The notes beneath the pieces are model-generated. The model did not search any database, was not told the DNA's origin, and worked only from the letters and a program-made list of their open reading frames with translations. A stretch of DNA of 64,000 nucleotides from Tropicibacter sp. R16_0 (GTDB lineage Bacteria; Pseudomonadota; Alphaproteobacteria; Rhodobacterales; Rhodobacteraceae), in assembly GCF_017743935.1 (NCBI RefSeq), contig NZ_JAGHRE010000010.1:62001-126000 (forward strand), read 5' to 3'. How positions within the stretch are numbered: position 1 is the first letter of the stretch; every line of letters begins with the position of its first letter. The translations under genes were made by a program, and so were the position numbers. This document shows positions 7,759 to 19,178 of the stretch, in pieces.

Positions 7759-7930
7759 GAGTTCGGGATAAGCAGACACCTGCAGAGCGTACAACAAGCA
7801 GTCGTTGGTTCCCTATTTTGACGTTCATCCATAATTCAATCAGATGAGCGTTGCAAACCTGCTTTCCCAACGTTTGGCGTTTGTAACCGAACCCTTTTTG
7901 ATTGCACCCCGAGCGCTTGTGTCTGAGTGA

Positions 7931-7946
7931 ATGTTCACGTTAACAT
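7931..7946. promoter_or_regulatory. LacI-family operator-like palindrome
   Basis: ATGTTCACGTTAACAT is a 16-bp palindrome with one mismatched pair and a central CG step, the usual form of LacI/GntR(LacI-family) operators. It lies 35 bp upstream of the TTG start proposed for the regulator, in the expected place for autoregulation. Confidence 0.55.
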
Positions 7947-7980
7947 CGTCTCAAATCAGAATGCTCAAAAAGGGTTCATC

Positions 7981-9006
7981 TTGACAGCAGACACAAAACG
8001 CCCGCTCACCCTTCGTGATGTCTCCGAAGCGTCAGGAGTGTCCGAGATGACCGTCAGCCGGGTGTTGCGAAACCGTGGGGATGTGTCCGATGCGACCCGC
8101 GCCCGCGTCCTCGCCGCTGCTAAAGAGTTGGGGTATGTTCCAAACAAGATCGCTGGCGCCCTGGCATCAAACCGGGTCAACCTGGTGGCGGTGATCATCC
8201 CGTCGTTGTCGAACATGGTCTTCCCCGAAGTTCTGACCGGCATCAATCAGGTTCTGGAAGACACCGAGTTGCAGCCCGTTGTTGGTGTCACCGATTACTT
8301 GCCCGAAAAAGAGGAAAAAGTGCTCTACGAGATGCTCTCGTGGCGGCCATCCGGCGTGATCATTGCCGGGCTTGAACATTCCGAGGCCGCGCGCACGATG
8401 CTGGATGCGGCCGGCATTCCCGTGGTCGAGATCATGGACACCGACGGCAAACCGGTGGATGCGATGGTGGGCATTTCGCACCGGCGCGCAGGCCGGGAAA
8501 TGGCGCAAGCCATCCTGAAAGCTGGCTATCGTCACATCGGGTTCATGGGCACCAAGATGCCGCTCGATCATCGGGCTCGCAAACGTTTCGAAGGGTTCAC
8601 CGAGGTTCTAGGTAAGAACGGGGTAGAGATCGAGGACCGCGAGTTTTATTCCGGAGGATCGGCCCTGGCCAAGGGCCGCGAGATGACCAAGACCATGTTG
8701 GATCGCTCGCCTGACTTGGATTTCCTGTATTATTCCAACGACATGATCGGGGCTGGTGGCCTGCTGTACCTGATGGATCAAGGCATCGACGTACCGGGCC
8801 AGGTGGGCCTTGCGGGCTTCAACGGGGTTGAACTGCTGCAAGGTTTGCCGCGCCAATTGGCAACCATGGATGCCTGCCGACTGGAGATCGGGCGCAAGGC
8901 GGCCGAGATTATTGCCGCCCGCCTAGAAGACCCTGAACAAGAAGTCGAAAGCCGCGTGACCCTGACCCCCAAGATCAGCTACGGCGATACGCTGAAACGG
9001 CGCTGA
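7981..9006 (+). CDS. LacI family transcriptional regulator
   Basis: A 341-residue sugar/sugar-acid-responsive repressor. The N-terminal LacI helix-turn-helix (TLRDVSEASGVSEMTVSRVL) and hinge helix (NKIAGALASNR) precede a periplasmic-binding-protein-like effector domain. The closest named relatives by pattern are the gluconate repressor GntR group. I choose TTG at 7981, seven bases after AAAAAGGG, because the alternative GTG at 7927 would place the operator-like palindrome (7931-7946) inside the coding region and add a non-conserved leader. It is followed after four bases by the YcaQ-family gene, so the two are probably cotranscribed. No obvious sugar-metabolism target is adjacent. Confidence 0.88.
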   Translation: MTADTKRPLTLRDVSEASGVSEMTVSRVLRNRGDVSDATRARVLAAAKELGYVPNKIAGALASNRVNLVAVIIPSLSNMVFPEVLTGINQVLEDTELQPVVGVTDYLPEKEEKVLYEMLSWRPSGVIIAGLEHSEAARTMLDAAGIPVVEIMDTDGKPVDAMVGISHRRAGREMAQAILKAGYRHIGFMGTKMPLDHRARKRFEGFTEVLGKNGVEIEDREFYSGGSALAKGREMTKTMLDRSPDLDFLYYSNDMIGAGGLLYLMDQGIDVPGQVGLAGFNGVELLQGLPRQLATMDACRLEIGRKAAEIIAARLEDPEQEVESRVTLTPKISYGDTLKRR

Positions 9007-9010
9007 TCCC

Positions 9011-10225
9011 ATGTCGGCCCCGGTGTTGGACAACACATCCGCCCGCGCGCTGTTTCTGGACCGTCATGCGCTAGCGGAACAGCCCGCAGGCCCGGCCAAG
9101 GGCCAACACCTGCTCGAACTGATCGAACGGTTGGGGTTTGTTCAGCTCGACAGCATCAACACTGTTGCACGCGCCCATGACATGATCCTCTATTCGCGTC
9201 GGCCGACGTATCGCCCCAAGCACCTCAAGCGCCTCTACGAATCCGACCGGGCCTTGTTCGAACATTGGACTCATGACGCCGCCGTGGTGCCGATGGCGTA
9301 CTATGCGCACTGGCATTTGCGATTTCAGCGTGACGCCGAACTCTTGCGATCACGGTACAAGAACTGGCATCGCGACGGGTTCGAACAGCGCTTCGATACC
9401 GTGCTGCAGCATATCCGCGATCACGGGCCGGTCAGCTCATCAGATGTCGGCAAGGACGAGAAGAAGGGCTCGGGCGGTTGGTGGGACTGGCACCCGTCGA
9501 AAACGGCGCTTGAATATCTGTGGCGCAGCGGCGCCCTGACGGTGATAGGGCGGGACGGGTTCCAGAAACGCTATGACCTGACCGAGCGCGTGATCGAGGA
9601 GCACCTGTGCCCCGGTGCAATCCCATGTGACGCCGAACAAACGGTGGATTGGTTGTGCAACGCAGCGCTGGACCGATTGGGATTTGCCACATCCGGAGAG
9701 TTGTCAGCCTTTTGGGACACCGTGTCGTCGGCTGAGGCCAAAGACTGGTGCGCGGCAGCCGAGCAGCGCGGCGAGATTGAAGTGATCGAGGTCGAAAGCG
9801 CCGATGGCTCCAGGCGCAAACACTTTGCCCGTCCCGGAACAGTTCAGGCCGCATCTGACGTTGCTGCACCGCCGAAACGGCTGCGCGTCCTGTCCCCGTT
9901 TGACCCGGCCTTGCGTGATCGTAAGCGGGCCGAGCGTCTGTTCGGGTTCCACTATCGGATCGAGGTCTTTGTGCCAGCGCCCAAGCGCATCTATGGCTAC
10001 TACGTCTTTCCACTTCTCGAGGGGGACAAGTTGGTTGGCCGCGTCGACATGAAGGCGCACCGCGACTGCGGCGAGTTGCGGGTTCGGGCACTTTGGCCTG
10101 AACGTGGGGTGCGTTGGTCCAAAGCCAGAACCCAAAGGCTGGAGTCTGAATTGGATCGTGTCCGCCGATTTACCGAAATGGACAGGGTGGTGTTCGCGCC
10201 CGATTGGCTGCGCGACCCCATTTGA
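9011..10225 (+). CDS. ycaQ: YcaQ-type winged-helix DNA glycosylase
   Basis: A 404-residue member of the HTH_42 (formerly DUF1006) family. E. coli YcaQ/AlkX and Streptomyces AlkZ in this family unhook alkylated bases and interstrand crosslinks. The catalytic-motif region reads FVQLDSINTVARAHDM, giving the Q-x-D motif of the YcaQ branch rather than the Q-x-Q of AlkZ (family knowledge). Tandem winged-helix segments occupy the middle; the C-terminal part contains the conserved LSPFDPALRDRKRAERLFGF and YYVFPLLEGDKLVGR stretches. It lies four bases downstream of the LacI regulator and converges on boxR. Pairing with a sugar-type repressor is odd for a repair enzyme and may be incidental. Confidence 0.9.
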   Translation: MSAPVLDNTSARALFLDRHALAEQPAGPAKGQHLLELIERLGFVQLDSINTVARAHDMILYSRRPTYRPKHLKRLYESDRALFEHWTHDAAVVPMAYYAHWHLRFQRDAELLRSRYKNWHRDGFEQRFDTVLQHIRDHGPVSSSDVGKDEKKGSGGWWDWHPSKTALEYLWRSGALTVIGRDGFQKRYDLTERVIEEHLCPGAIPCDAEQTVDWLCNAALDRLGFATSGELSAFWDTVSSAEAKDWCAAAEQRGEIEVIEVESADGSRRKHFARPGTVQAASDVAAPPKRLRVLSPFDPALRDRKRAERLFGFHYRIEVFVPAPKRIYGYYVFPLLEGDKLVGRVDMKAHRDCGELRVRALWPERGVRWSKARTQRLESELDRVRRFTEMDRVVFAPDWLRDPI

Positions 10226-10236
10226 CCCGTCAGGTG

Positions 10237-11157
10237 TCAGGCCGAAAGAAACCCTCGATCCACCACCAGATCTTTTAGTCGAGCAAAAGCCTCGTCTTCG
10301 CTCAACCCCGATGTGTCGAACTGTGCAAGTGCCTTGCCGTACAGGGCCTCGCGGCTGGTCAGAATGGATTTCAGCTGTTCCATCGCTTCGGGGTTTCCAG
10401 CCATCGGGCGTTCGTCGCCTTGCGCGCGGACCCGCTCCATGTGCTCGGCAGGAGAGGCGCGCAGCCAGATTGTGTGGAAATGACCCAGCAGGGTGTTGTA
10501 GGTCTCAGGCTCGGCCACGATGCCGCCCGCAACGGCCAGGATCATGGTCTCATGCGTGGCGATCACACGGCTCACGGCCTGCGCTTCGAGCTTGCGATAG
10601 CCCTCTTGCCCATAAAGTGCCATGACCTCGCTCACCGGCATACCGCTTTGCTCTTCGATCTCGGCGTTCAGTTCGACAAAGGGGACGTCCATTTCATCCC
10701 CCAAGCGGGCGCCCAAGGTTGATTTTCCGGCGCCTCGAAGCCCTACAAGGCAGACCCGTTTGGCCCGCAAAGCCTCAGCCGGTTCAGGGCTCAGGATGCG
10801 CAGGGCCGCCTGTTGAACATCCGCATTGGCCACACGAAACAGATCTGCCACGCGCACCGCATCCGATGTCCAGGGGTCGTCCTCGCCCACCAGCCATTCG
10901 ATACGATGATCCAAGGCCACGGCGACGCGTTGCAGCAACCCGATCGAGATATTGCCTTCACCCGCTTCAAGCTGCGCCAGATAGCGCGGCGAAACGCCTG
11001 ACATCTCGGACAGAACCCGCCGCGGAATGCCACGACGCTGCCGCGCCTCGCGGACCCGTTCACCCACGCGCACAATCAGGCCGTCGACTGAAGCCTCGGT
11101 GTGGTCGCGCGTGTCCTGTGGACTGCTTTCGCCGCGAAAGTTGGTGATTTCTGTCAT
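10237..11157 (-). CDS. boxR: BoxR/BzdR-type benzoyl-CoA-responsive regulator
   Basis: A 306-residue two-domain regulator. The N-terminal XRE-type helix-turn-helix (about residues 30-85, with RRVLSEMSGVSPRYLAQLE) is fused to a shikimate-kinase-like domain with P-loop GLRGAGKS at residues 139-146. This fusion is characteristic of BzdR/BoxR, which repress benzoate genes until benzoyl-CoA binds the kinase-like domain. It lies downstream of boxA on the same strand with its own 100-bp promoter region holding two TGCA-N6-TGC(G/T) sites, one starting 16 bp from the ATG, consistent with autoregulation. Confidence 0.93.
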   Translation of the reverse strand: MTEITNFRGESSPQDTRDHTEASVDGLIVRVGERVREARQRRGIPRRVLSEMSGVSPRYLAQLEAGEGNISIGLLQRVAVALDHRIEWLVGEDDPWTSDAVRVADLFRVANADVQQAALRILSPEPAEALRAKRVCLVGLRGAGKSTLGARLGDEMDVPFVELNAEIEEQSGMPVSEVMALYGQEGYRKLEAQAVSRVIATHETMILAVAGGIVAEPETYNTLLGHFHTIWLRASPAEHMERVRAQGDERPMAGNPEAMEQLKSILTSREALYGKALAQFDTSGLSEDEAFARLKDLVVDRGFLSA

Positions 11158-11258: not shown

Positions 11259-12443
11259 TCAGTAGGTTTCTACGTGGTACCGTCCGTCTTCGCGCATTTT
11301 ATCGCGGATCTCGGCCCAGTTCAAACCGATACCGCGCGCAATGTCCTTGAGCGCCTCCTCGACGCCTTGCTCCATCGCTTTGAGGCCGCAGATATAGATG
11401 TGACCCTTGGGATCCTGCAACAGTTTGCTCACCTTCTCGGCCTCAGCCCTCAGCTTGTCCTGCACATAGTGCTTGGTCTCGCCCTCCATCCGGGAGAATG
11501 CGAAATGCTTGGCCATGAAGTCATCAGGCACTTTCCCGAGGGGGCCAAAATACGGCAGCTCTTCGGGACGTCGGGCACCAAAGACCAGGGTCAGACTGTC
11601 CTTGAGCTTTGGGTTTTCACGCTGTCTGCGCATGGTGAAGGCACGGAACGGAGCTGACCCGGTGCCGGTACAGATCATCAGCAGATGCGTTTCGTGGTCA
11701 GCAGGCAGCAGGAAGGTCGCCCCAAACGGTCCGGTCAATTGAACCGTATCACCCGCTTTCAGGTCACAGACATAGTTCGAGCACACGCCGTGTTCTTCGC
11801 GTTTGACGGTCAGGGACAGGTTGTTGAAGTTGGGGCGCTCGCCGTCACGCGGGCTGGACACAGAATAGAGACGCGGCAAATGCGGTTTGCCGTCGGCGTC
11901 GGTGCCGGGTGGGATAACCCCAACGCTTTGCCCTTCGAGCACGGGAAAAGGCAGCGCGCCGAGGTCCAGGATGATGTGGCGCACGTCACTGTCGCTGTCC
12001 TGGTCCGTCAACCGATAGTTCCCCTGCACCTTTGCCTCGGCCGGTTTGCCAATGGTGTAGAGGTTGATCGTGGGTTTCGAGGCGGATGCAGGCGCCGTGG
12101 CCTTGCCGCCAGCCCCCTTGTGCGCCTCAGCCAAAAGGGCCGCCATCGCATCATCCAGCGCCTCAAGGCCGGTGTCATCCTCCGGCAGGTCTTCCTGCGG
12201 GGGGAGCTCCATCCACTCGTACTGCTCGTCGACCGAATAGGGTTCCGCCACCACACGCCATTCGTCGATAGACCCCGTTGGACAGACGGGAATGCAATCC
12301 ATGCAAAAGTTGCACTTCGAGGCGTCGACCACGACGTTCATGTCATCATGTTCGATCGCCTCTTCGGGGCAGGTCATCTCGCAGGTATAGCACCGGATGC
12401 AGATTTCCGGGTCGATCAGATGTTGTTTCAAGGGTTGGTTCAT
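11259..12443 (-). CDS. boxA: Benzoyl-CoA 2,3-epoxidase subunit A
   Basis: The reductase component that transfers electrons from NADPH to BoxB for epoxidation of benzoyl-CoA. It has 394 residues. Two 4Fe-4S ferredoxin motifs occupy the N-terminus (Cys15/18/21/25 and Cys44/47/50/54). An acidic Ala-rich linker joins them to a ferredoxin-NADP reductase module with the FAD motif RLYSVSSPR and the NADP motif GTGSAPFRAF. The ATG at 12443 overlaps the stop of a 57-residue upstream gene (ATGA); an open extension to 12536 has no ribosome-binding support. It is the last enzyme gene of the boxC-boxB-small protein-boxA run. Confidence 0.96.
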   Translation of the reverse strand: MNQPLKQHLIDPEICIRCYTCEMTCPEEAIEHDDMNVVVDASKCNFCMDCIPVCPTGSIDEWRVVAEPYSVDEQYEWMELPPQEDLPEDDTGLEALDDAMAALLAEAHKGAGGKATAPASASKPTINLYTIGKPAEAKVQGNYRLTDQDSDSDVRHIILDLGALPFPVLEGQSVGVIPPGTDADGKPHLPRLYSVSSPRDGERPNFNNLSLTVKREEHGVCSNYVCDLKAGDTVQLTGPFGATFLLPADHETHLLMICTGTGSAPFRAFTMRRQRENPKLKDSLTLVFGARRPEELPYFGPLGKVPDDFMAKHFAFSRMEGETKHYVQDKLRAEAEKVSKLLQDPKGHIYICGLKAMEQGVEEALKDIARGIGLNWAEIRDKMREDGRYHVETY

Positions 12444-12613
12444 GGGGTCGTCCCTCGCCGCAACACGATCTCGGGCAAAGTGGCTACCTCGGCCAGGGCG
12501 AAACAGACGCCCCGGCATGTGGTGCAGCCCAAACAAGGGGCATTCTGGTCGATCACGATCCGACCAACTTCGACCGTACGCCCGGTTCTGGGCGCGCTTT
12601 GTTCGACCTCCAT
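12440..12613 (-). CDS. 57-residue four-cysteine (putative Fe-S) protein of the box operon
   Basis: A small gene between boxB and boxA. The ATG at 12613 is preceded by AGGAGAAGGCC, an excellent Shine-Dalgarno, and its TGA overlaps the boxA ATG (ATGA). Both features argue for real, coupled translation. The 57-residue product carries CLGCTTCRGVC (Cys27, 30, 33, 37), the C-x2-C-x2-C-x3-C spacing of a 4Fe-4S ferredoxin half, though the last Cys is followed by Phe instead of Pro. A VEVGRIVID segment before it resembles a ferredoxin beta strand. It could be a small electron carrier or an assembly factor for BoxA/BoxB. I know of no described box component like it. Confidence 0.75.
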   Translation of the reverse strand: MEVEQSAPRTGRTVEVGRIVIDQNAPCLGCTTCRGVCFALAEVATLPEIVLRRGTTP

Positions 12614-12635
12614 GGCCTTCTCCTGGCTTGGACGA

Positions 12636-14087
12636 TTACGCCATGTGCAGTTGCACGTATTCGAAATCGCCTGGCTTGTTGTCGATGCCGACTTTCGGCG
12701 GAGAGATCCAGCTCGCGAACTTGCCGGGCTCGAAGCAGGGCTTCATCAGGGACTGGATGAAATCGCCATCCGCCTTGGTTGGCAGCCAATCCTTGACCTT
12801 GGCATCCCACTCCTCTTTCGGGATGATGTTGCCTTCGGGATCGACACTAACACTGGCAAAAACACCAATTTTGCGGTGGAACCCTTCGTGTGGCAGTGCC
12901 ATCGCAAATTCGATCCCGTTCTTTTCGATGATCTTGTTCCAGCGGCCCACACCACCTGCGGCGTCTTTCACATAGTCATCGCGCAGACGCATGTTGATCG
13001 CGGTCAGGGCGGGGACCTCTTCGGCGAGGATCGCGCCATCTTTTACCGTGCGCACAACGTAGGTGTCGTCGCTCAGCTTGTGGTCGTCCTTGATCCGCAT
13101 CTCCATGAACCGGCCCTTGATGCCCGCGTTGAACGCGTTGGCGGCGTTGGTCGACACTTCGTTTCCGAACAAGTCCAGTGACAGTGTGTAATGCAGGTTC
13201 AGCTTTTTCTGGATCGTGGGCAGGTCGATGACACCCAGATCGCGGATCTTGTCGATGTCGTAGGGATCAGTGATGCCCGCCTTGTTCATTGCCTCACACG
13301 TCGCCTGGATGGTGCGGCCAACACCGGTTTCACCAACAAACATATGGTGCGCCTCTTCGGTCAGCATGAAGCGGCAGGTACGGCTGAGCGGGTCGAACCC
13401 GGATTGCGCCAGGCTTTCCAGCTGCATCTTGCCGTCGCGGTCGGTGAAATAGGTGAACATGAAAAACGACAGCCAATCCGGCGTCTCTTCGTTAAAGGCA
13501 CCCAGCATCCGCGGCGCTTCGTCCGATCCGGACGAGCGGACCAGCATGTCGTTGGCCTCTTCCCGGCCATCGCGGCCAAAATATTTCTGCAGCAGATAGA
13601 CCATCGCCCACAGGTGCCGCCCCTCTTCGACGTTGACCTGGAACAAGTTGCGCATGTCATAAAGCGACGGTGCCGTCAGACCCAGGAACCGCTGCTGCTC
13701 GACCGAGCCCGGCTCGGTGTCGCCCTGGATCACGATCAGACGTTTGAGCATGTTGCGATACTCACCGGGTACCTCTTGCCAGGCGGGTTCGCCGTAATGC
13801 TCGCCACAGGGAATGCGGCGGTCTTCGACCTGTGGTGCCAACAGAACACCCCAACGGTATTCCGGCATCTTCACATAGTCGAACTTGGCCCACCCCTTGG
13901 GATCCACCGACACAGCGGTGCGCAGATAGACCATGCTTTCCTGAAAGTTCTGCGGGATCAGGTCGTTCCACCAGTTGATGTAACCGGGATGCCATTTCTC
14001 CAGCGCTTTCAGAACCTTCTTGTCCTGACTCAGACCCACATTGTTCGGGATCTGGGTGTCATAACTGACGTTGATCAGATCGAGCAT
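12636..14087 (-). CDS. boxB: Benzoyl-CoA 2,3-epoxidase subunit B
   Basis: Diiron oxygenase component that inserts one oxygen atom into benzoyl-CoA to give the 2,3-epoxide. It has 483 residues, the normal length. Helical-bundle iron ligand motifs are visible as EEGRHLWAM and EEAHHMFVGE (E-x-x-H pairs). The ATG at 14087 follows GGGGAGGAATGAA. It lies 36 bp downstream of boxC and is followed by the small four-cysteine gene and boxA, so the epoxidase subunits and the ring-opening enzyme are cotranscribed. Confidence 0.97.
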   Translation of the reverse strand: MLDLINVSYDTQIPNNVGLSQDKKVLKALEKWHPGYINWWNDLIPQNFQESMVYLRTAVSVDPKGWAKFDYVKMPEYRWGVLLAPQVEDRRIPCGEHYGEPAWQEVPGEYRNMLKRLIVIQGDTEPGSVEQQRFLGLTAPSLYDMRNLFQVNVEEGRHLWAMVYLLQKYFGRDGREEANDMLVRSSGSDEAPRMLGAFNEETPDWLSFFMFTYFTDRDGKMQLESLAQSGFDPLSRTCRFMLTEEAHHMFVGETGVGRTIQATCEAMNKAGITDPYDIDKIRDLGVIDLPTIQKKLNLHYTLSLDLFGNEVSTNAANAFNAGIKGRFMEMRIKDDHKLSDDTYVVRTVKDGAILAEEVPALTAINMRLRDDYVKDAAGGVGRWNKIIEKNGIEFAMALPHEGFHRKIGVFASVSVDPEGNIIPKEEWDAKVKDWLPTKADGDFIQSLMKPCFEPGKFASWISPPKVGIDNKPGDFEYVQLHMA

Positions 14088-14123: not shown

Positions 14124-15785
14124 TTACACACGTTCCATGTTGTAGTTGCCGCGCACGCCAGTGCCATAGCGTTGCAATGCGCCGTCTTCGCCCACTGCGT
14201 TGGGGCGCTGGAAAATCCAGTTCTGCCAGGCGGTCAGCCGCCCAAAAATACGGGTTTCCATCGTCTCGGGACCGGCAAAACGCAGGTTCGCCTCCATCCC
14301 GGTCATTGCATCGGGCGAGAAGCTGGCGCGCTCTTCCATGAAGATACGCACCTCATCCTCCCAATCGATGTCATCAAAGGCGTAGGTGACCAGGCCCAAT
14401 TCCTCGGCCTCATCCGCCTCAATCGCTTCGCCGATCTGCGCCTTGGCTGCATCGACCGCTTCGGGCGACCCAAGAAAGCGGGTTTCCAGCCGCGTCAGGT
14501 CGTTCGACATCGGATAGCGCCCGAAATTGCCGTCTGTCAGCGTGATCGCCGCCAAGGGCCGATTGTCGCCTTCGAACTCTTCGAGCATCATGTAGGTCCG
14601 GTCGACGGACCACAGCAGCTCGGCCAGAACCCCAGCAAAACAAGACCCATGTTCGACCAAAGCCACCAGCGAGCGCGAGGTCATGTCGACCCGCTTCAGC
14701 ACCCGTTTCCAATAGGTCAGGATTTCATTGGCCAGCCAGTGGTCTGCATTCTCAAGCAGCAGCTTTTCATGGGCGATCAGCTTGTCCGCGTCTCCTTGTG
14801 TGGTGAAGACCACCAGCCCAAGCTCACGCTCGTTCAAGCGCAGATGCAGGATCGCATCGTCAAGCTCACGTGCAAGACGCAGCAGGTAGGCCTCTGCCCC
14901 TTGTTCGACCAAAGCATCGGTTGATGTCGGCGCTTCATCCTCTGGACCCTTAATCAGGATGATCGCGCGTCCTGCGTCCCGCTCTACTGTCACTTCGACC
15001 GTGGAATAGGTCACCGATCCATCTTCGGCGAAACTGCGGGACAGGGGTGTCAGGGTGATGCCTGCAGCAACATCCGCCTTGTCCGAGGCCTCTGCAAACT
15101 CTTTCGCGCGCTCTTGCACGGTGTCATCGAACTTCGAATTGGCGATGACCTCGTCCACAAGCTTCCAGTCCACCGCGCGTTGGCCTTTGACGCCTTCTTC
15201 GACCGAACAGAACACATCGGCCAGATCGCGGCGCACCTTGCGTTTGTCGGTCACGCGGGTCAGGCCACCAGTGCCTGGCAGAACAGCGAGTAGCGGCACT
15301 TCGGGCAGGGCCACGGACGACGAGGAATCATTCGTCAGCATGATATGGTTGCAGGCCAGTGCCAGCTCATACCCGCCCCCGGCGCAGGCGCCCTTGACGG
15401 CGGCCACGTATTTTTGCCCCGAGTCCGCCTCTGCAGCTTCAAACGTGTTGCGGGTCTCGTTGGTGAATTTACAAAAGTTCACCTTGTGCGCATGGCTCGC
15501 GCCGCCCAGCATCCGAATGTTGGCCCCGGCGCAGAACACCTTGTCCTTGGCCGATTGCATAACCACGACCTTGACCTCGGGGTGCTCAAACCGCATCCGC
15601 TGCACCACATCGGCCAATTCGATATCAACGCCCAGGTCATAAGAGTTGAGTTTCAACTCATATCCGGGAAACAGCCCCGCCGTTTCGTCCACGTCCATGA
15701 ACAGGTTCGCAACGGGCCCGTCGTATTCGACGCGCCAATGACGATAGTTTGAGGGATCGGTCTGAAAGTCGATACGTTCCGCCAT
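14124..15785 (-). CDS. boxC: Benzoyl-CoA-dihydrodiol lyase
   Basis: Ring-opening enzyme that hydrolytically cleaves 2,3-epoxybenzoyl-CoA to 3,4-didehydroadipyl-CoA semialdehyde and formate. It has 553 residues with duplicated crotonase-like folds; the first half carries FCAGANIRML and GACAGGGYELALACNHIML (oxyanion-hole/CoA-binding region). The ATG at 15785 heads the boxC-boxB-small protein-boxA unit. Its 157-bp upstream region contains several TGCA-N6-TGCA-type sites. The next pathway enzyme, the semialdehyde dehydrogenase BoxD, is not encoded in the window. Confidence 0.97.
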   Translation of the reverse strand: MAERIDFQTDPSNYRHWRVEYDGPVANLFMDVDETAGLFPGYELKLNSYDLGVDIELADVVQRMRFEHPEVKVVVMQSAKDKVFCAGANIRMLGGASHAHKVNFCKFTNETRNTFEAAEADSGQKYVAAVKGACAGGGYELALACNHIMLTNDSSSSVALPEVPLLAVLPGTGGLTRVTDKRKVRRDLADVFCSVEEGVKGQRAVDWKLVDEVIANSKFDDTVQERAKEFAEASDKADVAAGITLTPLSRSFAEDGSVTYSTVEVTVERDAGRAIILIKGPEDEAPTSTDALVEQGAEAYLLRLARELDDAILHLRLNERELGLVVFTTQGDADKLIAHEKLLLENADHWLANEILTYWKRVLKRVDMTSRSLVALVEHGSCFAGVLAELLWSVDRTYMMLEEFEGDNRPLAAITLTDGNFGRYPMSNDLTRLETRFLGSPEAVDAAKAQIGEAIEADEAEELGLVTYAFDDIDWEDEVRIFMEERASFSPDAMTGMEANLRFAGPETMETRIFGRLTAWQNWIFQRPNAVGEDGALQRYGTGVRGNYNMERV

Positions 15786-15812: not shown

Positions 15813-15952
15813 TGCAACATAGTACGCTAAATGATGTGCGGCAAGTTCATATTGGCATGATAATGCACAAAATGAGGTCGAAATTGCGACGAAAAGGGAG
15901 AATTCCTGGACTCGCGTGAAGATTCAAAAGCATAATACTGCACTATAATGCA
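15813..15952. promoter_or_regulatory. BoxR-type operator cluster upstream of boxC
   Basis: TGCAACATAGTACG at 15813-15826 is nearly the same as the boxR site at 11173. TGCATTATCATGCC is read on the minus strand at 15854-15867. A perfect TGCA-N6-TGCA (TGCACTATAATGCA) lies at 15939-15952, overlapping the 3' end of the DUF309 gene. Spacing suggests cooperative repression of the boxC promoter. Confidence 0.65.
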
Positions 15953-16374
15953 TCATCGCCTTCGATTCGCGCCTCCAATGCGTCCAAGCGTTCCAGCACG
16001 CTCGCAACCCGGATGCCCATGACTTCGGTCGACGCACCGTTCAGCCCCGCTCGGCAATCAACGCACAAACGGCGTACGGCCTGTGGCCGATCCATCTTTT
16101 CTTTCAGCAGCGCATTGGCCAATTGGATGACGGCCTGAACAAATCGCCGCTCGGCCGAGTTTGGCGGCAGGACCAGCCAAACCGCCTCCCACACCTCATG
16201 CGCCTCCCAAAAGCATTCGGCCTCCAGAAACGCCCAACCCGCAGTCCAAGCGTCAGAATCCGCAAGATCACAAACGGACATTCCCGGCCGTGCCGTCACC
16301 CTTAGCGCGTCATATGCCCCCTCTTCGGGGCGCGGGGTCGCGCCCGGAACATATGGAACCGCTGGCAGTTCCAC
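15943..16374 (-). CDS. DUF309 family protein
   Basis: A 143-residue protein with the DUF309 signature: FWEAHEVWEAVW followed by ERRFVQAVIQLANALLK (about residues 55-95), an all-helical domain of unknown biochemical role. It starts three bases after the alpha/beta hydrolase stop, so it is the last gene of the benzoate-CoA ligase unit. DUF309 genes are widespread and not restricted to aromatic degradation; its place here suggests a supporting role in the pathway, but the family gives no reaction. Confidence 0.85.
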   Translation of the reverse strand: MELPAVPYVPGATPRPEEGAYDALRVTARPGMSVCDLADSDAWTAGWAFLEAECFWEAHEVWEAVWLVLPPNSAERRFVQAVIQLANALLKEKMDRPQAVRRLCVDCRAGLNGASTEVMGIRVASVLERLDALEARIEGDDAL

Positions 16375-16377
16375 CGA

Positions 16378-17196
16378 TCACGCAGTTTCGACGTGCGCCG
16401 CTTCGATCCGCTCCAACCTGTCGCAGAATTCCGTCGCCGCGGCGAGCGTTTCTTCGGGAGCTTCAAGATGGGGCGAGTGGTTGCAATCCAGCTCGACTCG
16501 ATCAACGGGACAATAGGCCCGGTCAGTGATTTCATCCAGCTGTGCCATGGTGCCATATTGGTCGCCATGCCCCTGGATCGCCAGGATGGGAACCCGGATA
16601 TAGTCGATCACCTCGGCCACATTCCAATCGGCAAACCCTGGATCAAGCCAGACATCCGCCCAACCCCGAAACGCACCTTCGGGATCTAGGTGGTATTTAC
16701 TCATCCGCGTCGAAAGGTCGGTGGTATTGAACATGTCGCGCGCCTGCTGGATCTCGGCCAGCCCCATGGGTTCGGTAAAGAAATGCGGGGCCATCAAAAT
16801 CACCCCTCGCACCCGATGATCTTCGACGCTGCCCGCATAGACCGCGGCCATCGTTGCACCGTCGGAATGACCAAATAGGATGCACCGCTGAATGCCTGCC
16901 TGATCCATGATGTGTGGCAGCACTTCAAGCGGCTCTTTGGACTGGTAATCCAACCCGCGCGGCAACTGGATCGGGTCCGAGTTGCCGTAGCCCTGTCGCG
17001 AAAACACCAGCACACCGAACCCGGTGCGGGCCGAAAGCTTTTCGGGGAAATCCCGCCACAGAGCGACGCAGCCCAACCCCTCGTGCAGCAGGACGATCGT
17101 CGGCGCCTGATCCGGTGCAGGGCCGTGACAGGCGTATTCCAAGGCGATACCATTCACCTTCATCGGAAAGCTTGGGGTCAGACTCCATTCGAACAT
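16378..17196 (-). CDS. Alpha/beta hydrolase of the benzoate cluster
   Basis: A 272-residue soluble alpha/beta-hydrolase. The nucleophile elbow is GHSDGAT (Ser about residue 103), a conserved SRQGYGNSD segment precedes it, and a late His near CNHSPHLEAPE would complete the triad. It starts after AAGGGTAAAAG, three bases beyond the benzoate-CoA ligase stop. Related hydrolases occur in other box clusters. A thioesterase releasing trapped acyl-CoAs or a lactone/epoxide-derived by-product hydrolase are both plausible; the substrate cannot be read from the sequence. Confidence 0.85.
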   Translation of the reverse strand: MFEWSLTPSFPMKVNGIALEYACHGPAPDQAPTIVLLHEGLGCVALWRDFPEKLSARTGFGVLVFSRQGYGNSDPIQLPRGLDYQSKEPLEVLPHIMDQAGIQRCILFGHSDGATMAAVYAGSVEDHRVRGVILMAPHFFTEPMGLAEIQQARDMFNTTDLSTRMSKYHLDPEGAFRGWADVWLDPGFADWNVAEVIDYIRVPILAIQGHGDQYGTMAQLDEITDRAYCPVDRVELDCNHSPHLEAPEETLAAATEFCDRLERIEAAHVETA

Positions 17197-17199
17197 CTT

Positions 17200-18726
17200 T
17201 TACCCTTCGCGCAGCTTGAAACGTTGGATCTTGCCCGTTGCGGTCTTGGGCAGATCGTCAACAAAGTCGATCCACCGAGGGTATTTCCATTTCCCTACCT
17301 TGTCTTTGACAAATGTCTGCAACTCTTCGGTCAGATCATCGACCCCGTCCTGCTTGAGAACGATAAAGGCCTTGGGCTTTTCAAGATCCTGCTCGTCCCG
17401 CATTGGAACAACGGCGGCCTCCAATACGGCGGGGTGTGCGCTCAGCGCCTGCTCGACCTCGAACGGCGACACCCAGATGCCGGACACCTTGAACATGTCG
17501 TCGGTGCGCCCGCAGTACACATACCGCCCGCTTTCCGTCAGCTCATATTTGTCGCCGGTGCGGGTCCATTCTCCTTCGAATGTCGCCCGGCTTTTGTCGC
17601 GCTTGTTCCAATAGCCGTCCGCTGCTGACGCTCCGCGCACCAAAAGCTCACCCAATCCGCCGGCAGGAACGTCATTGCCATCTTCGTCGACCAACCGGAC
17701 CTCATATCCAGGCACCGGGCGACCCGACGTGCCATAGGCCACATCATCTGGCGCATTCGACAGAAAGATGTGCAGCATTTCAGTCGAACCAACACCATCC
17801 AAGATGTCGGTTCCCCAAAGACCACGCCACGCGGTTCCGATGTCTTCGGGCAAGGCCTCTCCGGCTGAAATGCAGCGCCGCAGCTTGGTGTCCGGCACAT
17901 CGCTTTGCTCGAGCAAGGCAACCGTCGCGGCATAGAGGGTGGGCACCCCACAAAACACGGTGGGTTTCTCGTCACGCAGGATCTGTACGGTCATCTCGGG
18001 CGTAGGGCGGCCATTGAACAGGATGGTTTCAGCACCCACGGACATGGGGAAGGTCATGGCGTTGCCCAATCCATAAGCAAAAAACAGCTTTGCTGCAGAA
18101 TAGACCACATCGCCTGGTTCGATCTGCAACACTTGCGCGCCATAGGTATCGGCCGTGGCCTTGAGGCTGCCGTGAACATGGCGCACCCCTTTGGGCTGTC
18201 CGGTCGACCCGGACGAATAGAGCCAGAATGCCACGTCATCCTCGGACGCATCGACCGTATCGGAAGGGGCACAATCCGCAGTGAAATCCGCATAGCTGAC
18301 GGTGCCCCGGGGCGCGTCACCAATGACGACGATATGGCTCAGATGGCTGGATGCCTTTGCAGCAGGTTCCACGATCGGCCAAAGCTCTTGGCTGACAAAC
18401 AGGATGGTCGCACGGCTGTCTTCCAGGATGGCCTCATAGACCGGGGCGGCCAGTAGGGTATTGAGGGGCACAGGGACCACGCCCGCTTTCATGCAGCCCC
18501 AAAAGATCTGCGGAAACTCGATCTGATCCAGGACAAGCATGACGGCCCGCGCCTCACGCGGGATGCCTGCACGGGTCAACGCGGTGGCCACGACACCGGC
18601 CCCTTCGGCCAAGGCACCATAGGTCAGGGACCGCTTTTCCCCAGCCGCCTCGCGAAAGGCCGACCTGTCACCGCGCCCTTCGCTGACATGACGATCCACA
18701 AAATATTGCGCTGCGTTTCCGCTCAT
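17200..18726 (-). CDS. bclA: Benzoate-CoA ligase
   Basis: AMP-forming ligase of 508 residues that activates benzoate to benzoyl-CoA, the entry step of the box pathway. ANL-family motifs are all present: P-loop YSSGSTGQPKGV, the GVGSTEM core motif, the hinge-region GRTDDMFKVSGIWVSP and the C-terminal catalytic Lys in PKTATGKIQR. AFFYAYGLGN-type sequence (LFFAYGLGNAMTFP) is typical of benzoate-CoA ligases. The start at 18726 (MSGNAAQYF) follows GGGAGGGGTGG; an open extension to 18813 is unsupported. Two TGCA-type operators lie 109-155 bp upstream. It leads a unit with the alpha/beta hydrolase and DUF309 genes. Confidence 0.95.
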   Translation of the reverse strand: MSGNAAQYFVDRHVSEGRGDRSAFREAAGEKRSLTYGALAEGAGVVATALTRAGIPREARAVMLVLDQIEFPQIFWGCMKAGVVPVPLNTLLAAPVYEAILEDSRATILFVSQELWPIVEPAAKASSHLSHIVVIGDAPRGTVSYADFTADCAPSDTVDASEDDVAFWLYSSGSTGQPKGVRHVHGSLKATADTYGAQVLQIEPGDVVYSAAKLFFAYGLGNAMTFPMSVGAETILFNGRPTPEMTVQILRDEKPTVFCGVPTLYAATVALLEQSDVPDTKLRRCISAGEALPEDIGTAWRGLWGTDILDGVGSTEMLHIFLSNAPDDVAYGTSGRPVPGYEVRLVDEDGNDVPAGGLGELLVRGASAADGYWNKRDKSRATFEGEWTRTGDKYELTESGRYVYCGRTDDMFKVSGIWVSPFEVEQALSAHPAVLEAAVVPMRDEQDLEKPKAFIVLKQDGVDDLTEELQTFVKDKVGKWKYPRWIDFVDDLPKTATGKIQRFKLREG

Positions 18727-19178
18727 CCACCCCTCCCTGACGTGATTGGCCGGAGCAGCGCGCGAGCGGCTCCTCCGATCCGACTCGCGCGCGCCTCTCC
18801 CCTGCCGCGCCATAATGCATTCGGACTCAGTATATGCAAGATAATGCTCATCACGAAAGTGGGAACTTGCACTTTATCGCATATTTTTCTGAATCCCCGC
18901 GATTGCCCGACCTGTGTCGGACACACCTGCAATCGCCAAAAACCGTGCAAAGTCACGTTGGTTGACCATTCGCATTGCGTTTCTGGGGACCGCCGATTGT
19001 GGCTGAACTGGCCGAGTAGACACATTGCGTTAAGGTCAATTCACTGATTTCATCCCCTTCACCTTGAAACGCACCCGACCACAGCCGTTCCACGATTGGC
19101 AAAGCTGCTGAGCAATATCTTTGTCCGCCGTGCGTCAGCCATGGATACATTTGATTGGACCACCCCTTGAGCACCTAC
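18727..19178. promoter_or_regulatory. Divergent control region of bclA with BoxR-type operators
   Basis: About 450 bp without a supported gene between bclA (minus) and the Nudix gene (plus). It contains ATAATGCAT at 18812-18820, TGCAAGATAATGCT at 18835-18848 (identical to the boxR-upstream site) and TGCA-N6-CGCA at 18868-18881. The part from about 18890 to 19178 holds only short frames without recognisable domains. Confidence 0.65.

Follow-up and report, generated by a model that had tools for sequence, protein, structure and literature searches.

A conserved four-cysteine gene between boxB and boxA of Rhodobacteraceae, most likely encoding a small metal-binding helper protein

A 57-residue frame between the benzoyl-CoA epoxidase subunit genes boxB and boxA of Tropicibacter sp. 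R16_0 is a real gene that is conserved and under selection, and that is linked to boxB yet separable from the box enzymes. Its product, with four cysteines in CxxCxxCxxxC spacing, is most likely a small iron–sulfur (or zinc) helper protein; from sequence we infer its expression, its metal and cluster type, its helper role and BoxB as its client. The reading we prefer, in which a small Fe-S protein assists BoxB, has in our estimate a probability of roughly 0.35. The window, i.e. the whole stretch of DNA analyzed (64,000 nucleotides of contig NZ_JAGHRE010000010.1), contains the following features of the operon and its flanks.

7927..9006 (plus strand): LacI-family regulator beside the AlkZ-like gene (PF00356)
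9011..10225 (plus strand): AlkZ-like gene, converging on the operon (PF06224, 244 bits)
10237..11157 (minus strand): BoxR-like regulator, HTH and shikimate-kinase-like domain (NF006015, 389 bits)
11259..12443 (minus strand): boxA, benzoyl-CoA 2,3-epoxidase reductase subunit (TIGR03224, 541 bits, cut-off 459)
12440..12443 (minus strand): ATGA, 4-base overlap of the four-cysteine stop (TGA) with the boxA start (ATG)
12440..12613 (minus strand): four-cysteine gene, 57 codons (from translation, homologues and dN/dS)
12503..12535 (minus strand): CLGCTTCRGVC, the CxxCxxCxxxC motif, residues 27-37 (from translation)
12620..12624 (minus strand): Shine-Dalgarno AGGAG, six bases 5' of the four-cysteine ATG
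12636..14087 (minus strand): boxB, di-iron epoxidase subunit (TIGR03225, 903 bits, cut-off 499; solved relative 3per)
14124..15785 (minus strand): boxC, 2,3-epoxybenzoyl-CoA dihydrolase (TIGR03222, 943 bits)
15943..16374 (minus strand): DUF309 protein (PF03745, 54.8 bits)
16378..17196 (minus strand): operon alpha/beta hydrolase (PF00561)
17200..18813 (minus strand): benzoate-CoA ligase (TIGR02262, 721 bits)

Read in the direction of transcription, the operon runs from benzoate-CoA ligase through the alpha/beta hydrolase, DUF309, boxC, boxB, the four-cysteine gene and boxA to the boxR-like regulator, and converges on the AlkZ-like and LacI-family genes. The minus-strand translation from 12613 to 12440 is MEVEQSAPRTGRTVEVGRIVIDQNAPCLGCTTCRGVCFALAEVATLPEIVLRRGTTP followed by a stop; it begins at an ATG (12613-12611), 22 bases from the boxB stop, and places its cysteines at residues 27, 30, 33 and 37. 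The initial annotation had described this frame, its start, its Shine-Dalgarno sequence, its overlap with boxA and its cysteine spacing, all of which proved accurate, and profile matches to boxB upstream and boxA downstream bear out its claimed position between the epoxidase subunit genes. Since the corresponding position in other genomes also holds homologues, the frame is more than chance, an origin that is further ruled out by peptide conservation and junction spacing. Descent from a boxA fragment or frameshift was likewise rejected, as the neighboring boxA and boxB are both complete.

The gene is common behind boxB within the family Rhodobacteraceae. A first tblastn search, in which matches above 1e-5 were discarded as noise, returned clear matches (E < 1e-5) in 8 of 61 genomes, all from the same family as the window. 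BoxB (TIGR03225) was found in 82/394 family genomes, of which 80 were usable (79 fetched loci plus the window, with a readable boxB 3' side; G370, an unfetched fragment, and L111, whose contig ends at boxB, were left out). The initial annotation had named lack of conservation at other boxB-boxA junctions as refuting its reading. Conservation held for most boxB genomes of the family, 61/80 of which carry the gene directly behind boxB; it did not hold for 17/80 without any trace, nor for the boxB loci examined outside the family. Among the 61 carriers, boxA comes next in 54, a variant gene precedes a flavodoxin gene in three, and neither boxA nor flavodoxin follows in four. Two further genomes retain only a decayed copy (L065, frameshifted; L096, judged decayed by eye from translations and lacking a profile match), and the 17 genomes without a trace have boxA (15) or a flavodoxin gene (2) behind boxB. 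Junction spacing agrees with these assignments: boxB and boxA lie 192-601 bases apart with the gene (53 fetched family junctions), 208 and 238 bases apart at the two decayed junctions, and 2-116 bases apart without it (15 junctions). Every family boxB-boxA gap of at least 192 bases thus contains the gene, be it intact or decayed, a rule confined to the family, as some equally long gaps in other groups contain nothing alike. Where boxA follows, the two frames overlap by four bases at 36/53 fetched family junctions and by one base at 3/53, and are separated by a gap at 14/53.

A genome-wide profile search of the 394 family genomes matched 83 at E ≤ 0.01. We kept 70, comprising 62 with boxB (including the frameshifted G012) and eight without, and dropped 13 whose sole matches had E-values of 4e-4 to 0.01, together with weak second matches in G020, G034 and G118. 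Carriage in 61/80 boxB genomes vs 8/312 boxB-less genomes corresponds to a Fisher p of 3e-45 with genomes treated as independent. The boxB tree was weak (17/88 inner branches starred), so that gains and losses on it cannot be counted firmly. Two BoxB residues, Lys449 and Ser459, were commoner in carriers (53/63 and 48/63) than in non-carriers (3/19 and 3/19), and tree-based pairs for such carrier-linked residues were below significance (at least five supported pairs).

Outside the family, the gene was found in none of the boxB loci examined. Among 162 genomes spanning the class, the profile detected no homologue besides the window's own. BoxB was present in 81/385 genomes of a class draw and in 35/398 genomes of a phylum draw (9 of them outside the class), and the scanned boxB loci of other families in both draws contained no homologue. 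In a set of named records that overlaps the unnamed set and represents the best 80 of at least 593 boxB matches, 34/80 boxB loci carried the gene by profile and one more (L280) by reading of the gap. These 35 carriers are titled Rhodobacteraceae, Paracoccaceae, Rhodobacterales or individual genera, including Ruegeria, Phaeobacter, Sulfitobacter, Sedimentitalea, Thalassovita, Tateyamaria, Pararhodobacter and Tropicibacter; the genera so titled we take to be members of those groups. Among the same best 80 of at least 593 matches, no boxB locus titled as another group had the gene, and rarer carriers outside the family may exist. Plasmid records gave no match for the four-cysteine protein, with no plasmid of this family among 11 boxB matches, and phage families gave none for three members of the four-cysteine family. 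The open-access literature searched, a body that mostly excludes subscription papers, yielded no report of the gene, and the accessible parts of PMC5489048, PMC9873259 and PMC10803450 do not mention it.

The peptide itself is conserved. Across 88 different aligned homologues, the second, third and fourth cysteines are invariant, whereas the first is in register (CxxCxxCxxxC) in 83 and one residue earlier (CxxxCxxCxxxC) in five; Gly35 is kept in 87/88 and Pro47 in 82/88. Free variation of the cysteine codons, which the initial annotation had named as refuting its reading, was not observed: the codons alternate between TGC and TGT at each of the four positions (83 sequences), indicating that conservation acts on the residue. 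Six homologue pairs of at least 80% identity had dN/dS values of 0.04-0.34 (window vs G003: 0.066/0.333), and more distant pairs reached 0.5-0.6 in some cases, with some dS values saturated or undefined. The first alignment had been assembled by means of the cysteine motif; when six-frame open reading frames of the same loci were later searched with the profile and no motif filter (E < 0.03), only the two motif-less halves of the frameshifted L065 copy were added. The sensitivity of the profile is incomplete, as it missed the variant copy in L280.

Loci in which boxA is displaced indicate which subunit the gene accompanies. In all four family genomes that have a standard four-cysteine gene and neither boxA nor flavodoxin behind boxB (L071, L090, L091 and L097), the four-cysteine gene occupies that place, and none of them showed another strong match when searched genome-wide with the profile. 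In two genomes (G106 and G239), boxA lies apart from boxB, among other box genes on a different contig; in these split clusters (L322 and L323) ligase, hydrolase and boxA share one contig, joined by boxC in G106, and boxB and the four-cysteine gene lie on a separate one. G416, which is 99% complete, has no detectable BoxA and keeps the gene behind boxB, and G246, also without boxA behind boxB, is only 75% complete. That the gene stays with boxB where boxA is elsewhere or missing fits a helper on the BoxB side. In three further family genomes, a flavodoxin gene takes the position of boxA and no BoxA reaches the cut-off; beside boxB they carry a variant gene in whose product the first two cysteines stand one residue further apart. 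Three Tateyamaria loci of the named set carry the variant beside boxB in the same manner.

A flavodoxin-type gene was observed directly behind boxB or behind the variant in L095, L098, L103, L100, L104, L164, L259, L268, L279-L281 and L292, identified by PF00258 in L103 and L104 and by similarity at the other loci. In flavodoxin loci L100, L104, L164, L166, L279, L281 and L292, gaps of 34-61 bases leave no room for the four-cysteine gene. None of the six family genomes tested with flavodoxin behind boxB had BoxA above cut-off, and the flavodoxin-type protein may be an electron donor of BoxB. In other families of the class (L115-L144 and L167-L218, minus L122 and L125), boxA was present in 12/80 fetched flanks, some of them short, and all nine tested genomes of other class families without a flanking boxA lacked BoxA above cut-off. 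These boxA-less loci agree with the accessible part of PMC10803450, which describes box clusters without BoxA in some bacteria.

In our preferred reading, the four-cysteine protein would consist of a helix, the CxxCxxCxxxC loop and a second helix, forming a small metal-binding protein whose bound metal is most likely a [4Fe-4S] cluster; the lone motif could bind such a cluster within one chain or between the two chains of a homodimer. The protein would be co-produced with the box enzymes, from a gene whose stop overlaps the boxA start. Its most likely job would be on the BoxB side, namely loading the di-iron site, reducing it again, or keeping BoxB functional in some other way, and the main NADPH-derived electrons are carried by BoxA rather than by the four-cysteine protein (the accessible part of PMC5489048 states that BoxA reduces BoxB with NADPH). 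The protein may serve the maturation or activation of BoxB; with no trace of the gene in 17/80 family boxB genomes and none in the boxB loci examined outside the family, BoxB cannot generally depend on it. Because the gene survives in genomes without the box enzymes, the protein would also have to have an additional client or a more general role beyond them.

Such genomes argue for the strongest alternative, in which the protein is a box-independent small Fe-S or Zn sensor or adaptor with a wider role, such as in aromatic acid uptake or response, possibly with DUF309 or a TRAP transporter; we hold this reading to be as probable as the helper on the BoxB side. The profile search identified the gene at E < 1e-10 in 8/312 boxB-less family genomes; seven copies are intact and one (G169) is frameshifted. 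The eight carrier genomes are 99-100% complete. In none of them did BoxC match at E ≤ 1e-40 or BoxA exceed its cut-off, although three showed weak partial reductase-type matches to the BoxA model at about 1e-11. In four boxB-less loci (L313, L314, L316 and L317), the gene adjoins an AlkZ-like gene with a LacI-family gene beyond, and the window counterparts of these two are 69-76% and 86-91% identical, respectively. A 63-base remnant of the boxA start persists behind the intact gene in L313 (G132; score 41 vs a maximum of 31 in 60 shuffles), indicating that boxA was lost there. The remnant search comprised 18 flank tests at nine box-less loci, of which two beat 60 shuffles; the second, upstream in L314 (32 vs 31 shuffled), was taken as chance. 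In L313 and L314, the four-cysteine gene comes immediately after a TRAP permease gene; L321 has such a permease gene upstream. L321 is the second copy of G409, whose first copy sits in a complete box operon; the second follows an aryl-CoA-ligase-like end (recognized by eye) and precedes a BoxR-like gene, with boxA and boxB absent from the fetched stretch. In L318, the box-less copy comes after genes for a TupA-like tungstate-binding protein (whose match was below cut-off) and for an HTH protein of excisionase type with similarity to the end of a molybdopterin biosynthesis protein.

Genus g290 contains both states. Two box-bearing genomes (G1144 and G1168) have the order TRAP-bcl-abh-DUF309-boxC-boxB-gene-boxA-boxR, whereas two boxB-less genomes (G292 and G1123, the latter additional to the first-set 8/312) have only TRAP-DUF309-gene between matching flanks, with a TRAP match to TIGR00786 over cut-off. 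Neither has BoxB anywhere in its genome, and the fetched 16 kb of G1123 contains no boxA or boxC. The gene and DUF309 are under purifying selection in these two boxB-less species: between G292 and G1123, the four-cysteine gene has dN 0.378 and dS 1.481 (dN/dS ~0.26) and DUF309 has dN 0.214 and dS 2.303 (dN/dS ~0.09), both with dS near saturation. When random substitution was simulated at the observed rate in 100,000 draws, 0.2% of them retained four cysteines and had no stop, and none did so with as few residue changes as the observed gene pair. A short common stretch resembling the ligase start, for which there was no control, hints at a single shared box loss. The DUF309 homologues kept with the gene in these two boxB-less species lie at L319 and L334.

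DUF309 lies upstream of boxC in 8/8 box-bearing loci compared and in 40 of 69 named loci (11 of the 80 were left out, their upstream sequence being short). By profile, the gene is present in 23/40 named loci with DUF309 and in 8/29 without (p 0.016, loci treated as independent); with L280 counted, the comparison becomes 23/40 vs 9/29 (p 0.05). The only PDB sequence match of DUF309 is 2cwy, a hypothetical protein. Against a box-independent role stand the strong association with boxB, the lack of any neighbor common to all box-less carriers, and the absence of the gene from 17/40 DUF309-bearing boxB loci of the named set. As some relatives keep the gene without the rest of the pathway, the four-cysteine protein probably has a job of its own. 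A bolder reading, which we consider improbable, envisages a new family of ~55-residue single-motif Fe-S proteins, natural half-ferredoxins of helical build, perhaps homodimers whose chains each donate the fourth cysteine to the partner's cluster. Such a protein would serve BoxB beside boxA and yet form with DUF309 a module kept after loss of the benzoyl-CoA pathway.

The nature of the metal separates the next alternative, a zinc-binding small protein such as a regulator that binds a transcription factor or RNA. The window protein stayed below the cut-offs of all Pfam and NCBIfam models (best Fer4_2, 14.4 bits vs 24.5). The best family E-values among the 88 members were 5e-4 (Pfam) and 1e-3 (NCBIfam), from which alone the other 87 are also taken to be below cut-offs; by these scores, the four-cysteine family lies outside the models searched. 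Weak Pfam matches (E ≤ 0.1) of the 88 members fell into 13 families, eight of 4Fe-4S types and five unrelated to Fe-S, and the best PDB sequence matches were the 4Fe-4S loops of PsaC, over the cysteine motif alone; matches to Fe-S families in general rest almost wholly on this motif. Two structure models (pLDDT 79 and 67, modest confidence) predict a helix from residue 11 to 21/22, the cysteine loop, and a helix at 36-52. A fold search with these modest-confidence models found no PDB match at E ≤ 0.001 (VIA best Z 2.2).

The motif shares its CxxCxxCxxxC spacing with [4Fe-4S] ferredoxins (Fer4 group, PsaC loop) in 83/88 members, the other five having CxxxCxxCxxxC, and the PsaC pattern C-[VI]-G-C-T-x-C also occurs in the family. 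The proline that follows the fourth cysteine in ferredoxins is replaced by phenylalanine in the window protein and most commonly by A, Q, R, L or W elsewhere, and is present in few members, such as those of L052 and L091. Unlike [4Fe-4S] ferredoxins, the protein has a single motif, a modeled helix before the loop, and weak family scores. A binding site of four cysteines in a short helix-loop-helix protein would also suit zinc, the near-invariant glycine gives CxxCxGxC, and one member weakly matches Anti-TRAP, whose family binds zinc. However, the CxxCxxCxxxC spacing points to 4Fe-4S loops, as do most matches below threshold, and we consider the zinc reading unlikely.

Small accessory proteins offer two functional parallels. 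PaaD is encoded in the operon of phenylacetyl-CoA epoxidase, a related di-iron CoA-ester epoxidase, and XylT-type ferredoxins, which are plant-type [2Fe-2S] proteins, re-reduce dioxygenase iron. The four-cysteine gene resembles the first in belonging, as a small accessory gene, to a di-iron epoxidase operon, and the second as a gene for a small, probably Fe-S protein beside the oxygenase that it would rescue. Neither the PaaD family nor the XylT-type [2Fe-2S] family is among the 13 Pfam families matched by the 88 members (E ≤ 0.1).

The initial annotation had proposed an extra electron carrier of the epoxidase, and a carrier dedicated to transfer between BoxA and BoxB would suit the location of the gene between the two subunit genes, the bases it shares with boxA, and a cysteine spacing like that of ferredoxins. 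As the whole story this is unlikely, given the 17/80 genomes without a trace, the absence from the boxB loci examined outside the family, and the eight boxB-less carriers, which show that the protein is not just such a carrier. A dedicated component would always accompany BoxA and BoxB and never occur without BoxB; the gene is absent or decayed in 19/80 boxB genomes (15 of which have boxB and boxA adjacent and no trace), is kept in G416, where BoxA is not detectable, and occurs without BoxB in 8/312 genomes (one frameshifted) plus G1123. BoxA already contains an N-terminal two-cluster ferredoxin domain with the same type of cysteine spacing, encoded in the same operon; in the window, its two motifs, each followed by proline, are fused to a flavin reductase, whereas the four-cysteine protein has one motif and stands alone. 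All eight cluster cysteines of BoxA are present in 56/56 carriers examined, leaving no gap for the four-cysteine protein to fill. Residue 47, a cluster cysteine in those 56 carriers, is glutamate in 3/17 non-carriers. In Azoarcus evansii, BoxA and BoxB are reported to suffice, which we also count against a dedicated carrier. That the frame is a leader, whose translation merely sets boxA expression and whose peptide is functionless, is very improbable despite the 4-base overlap at 36/53 junctions, since the peptide sequence rather than the overlap alone is conserved (a leader peptide would itself be unconserved, against a dN/dS of 0.04-0.34 in close pairs), 14/53 junctions have a gap instead, and the gene persists without boxA behind it.

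Benzoyl-CoA epoxidase has been described as two proteins, BoxA and BoxB, yet most operons of this large family of marine bacteria carry a third gene, whose product is probably metal-binding. The flavodoxin gene at the place of boxA in some related genomes suggests that electrons may reach BoxB in more ways than two proteins alone would provide. If the module of DUF309 and the four-cysteine protein were real, it would reveal a general cellular job hidden in a catabolic operon. Lineages with the box enzymes and no four-cysteine gene, and lineages with the gene and no box enzymes, open its function to direct tests by deleting the gene.
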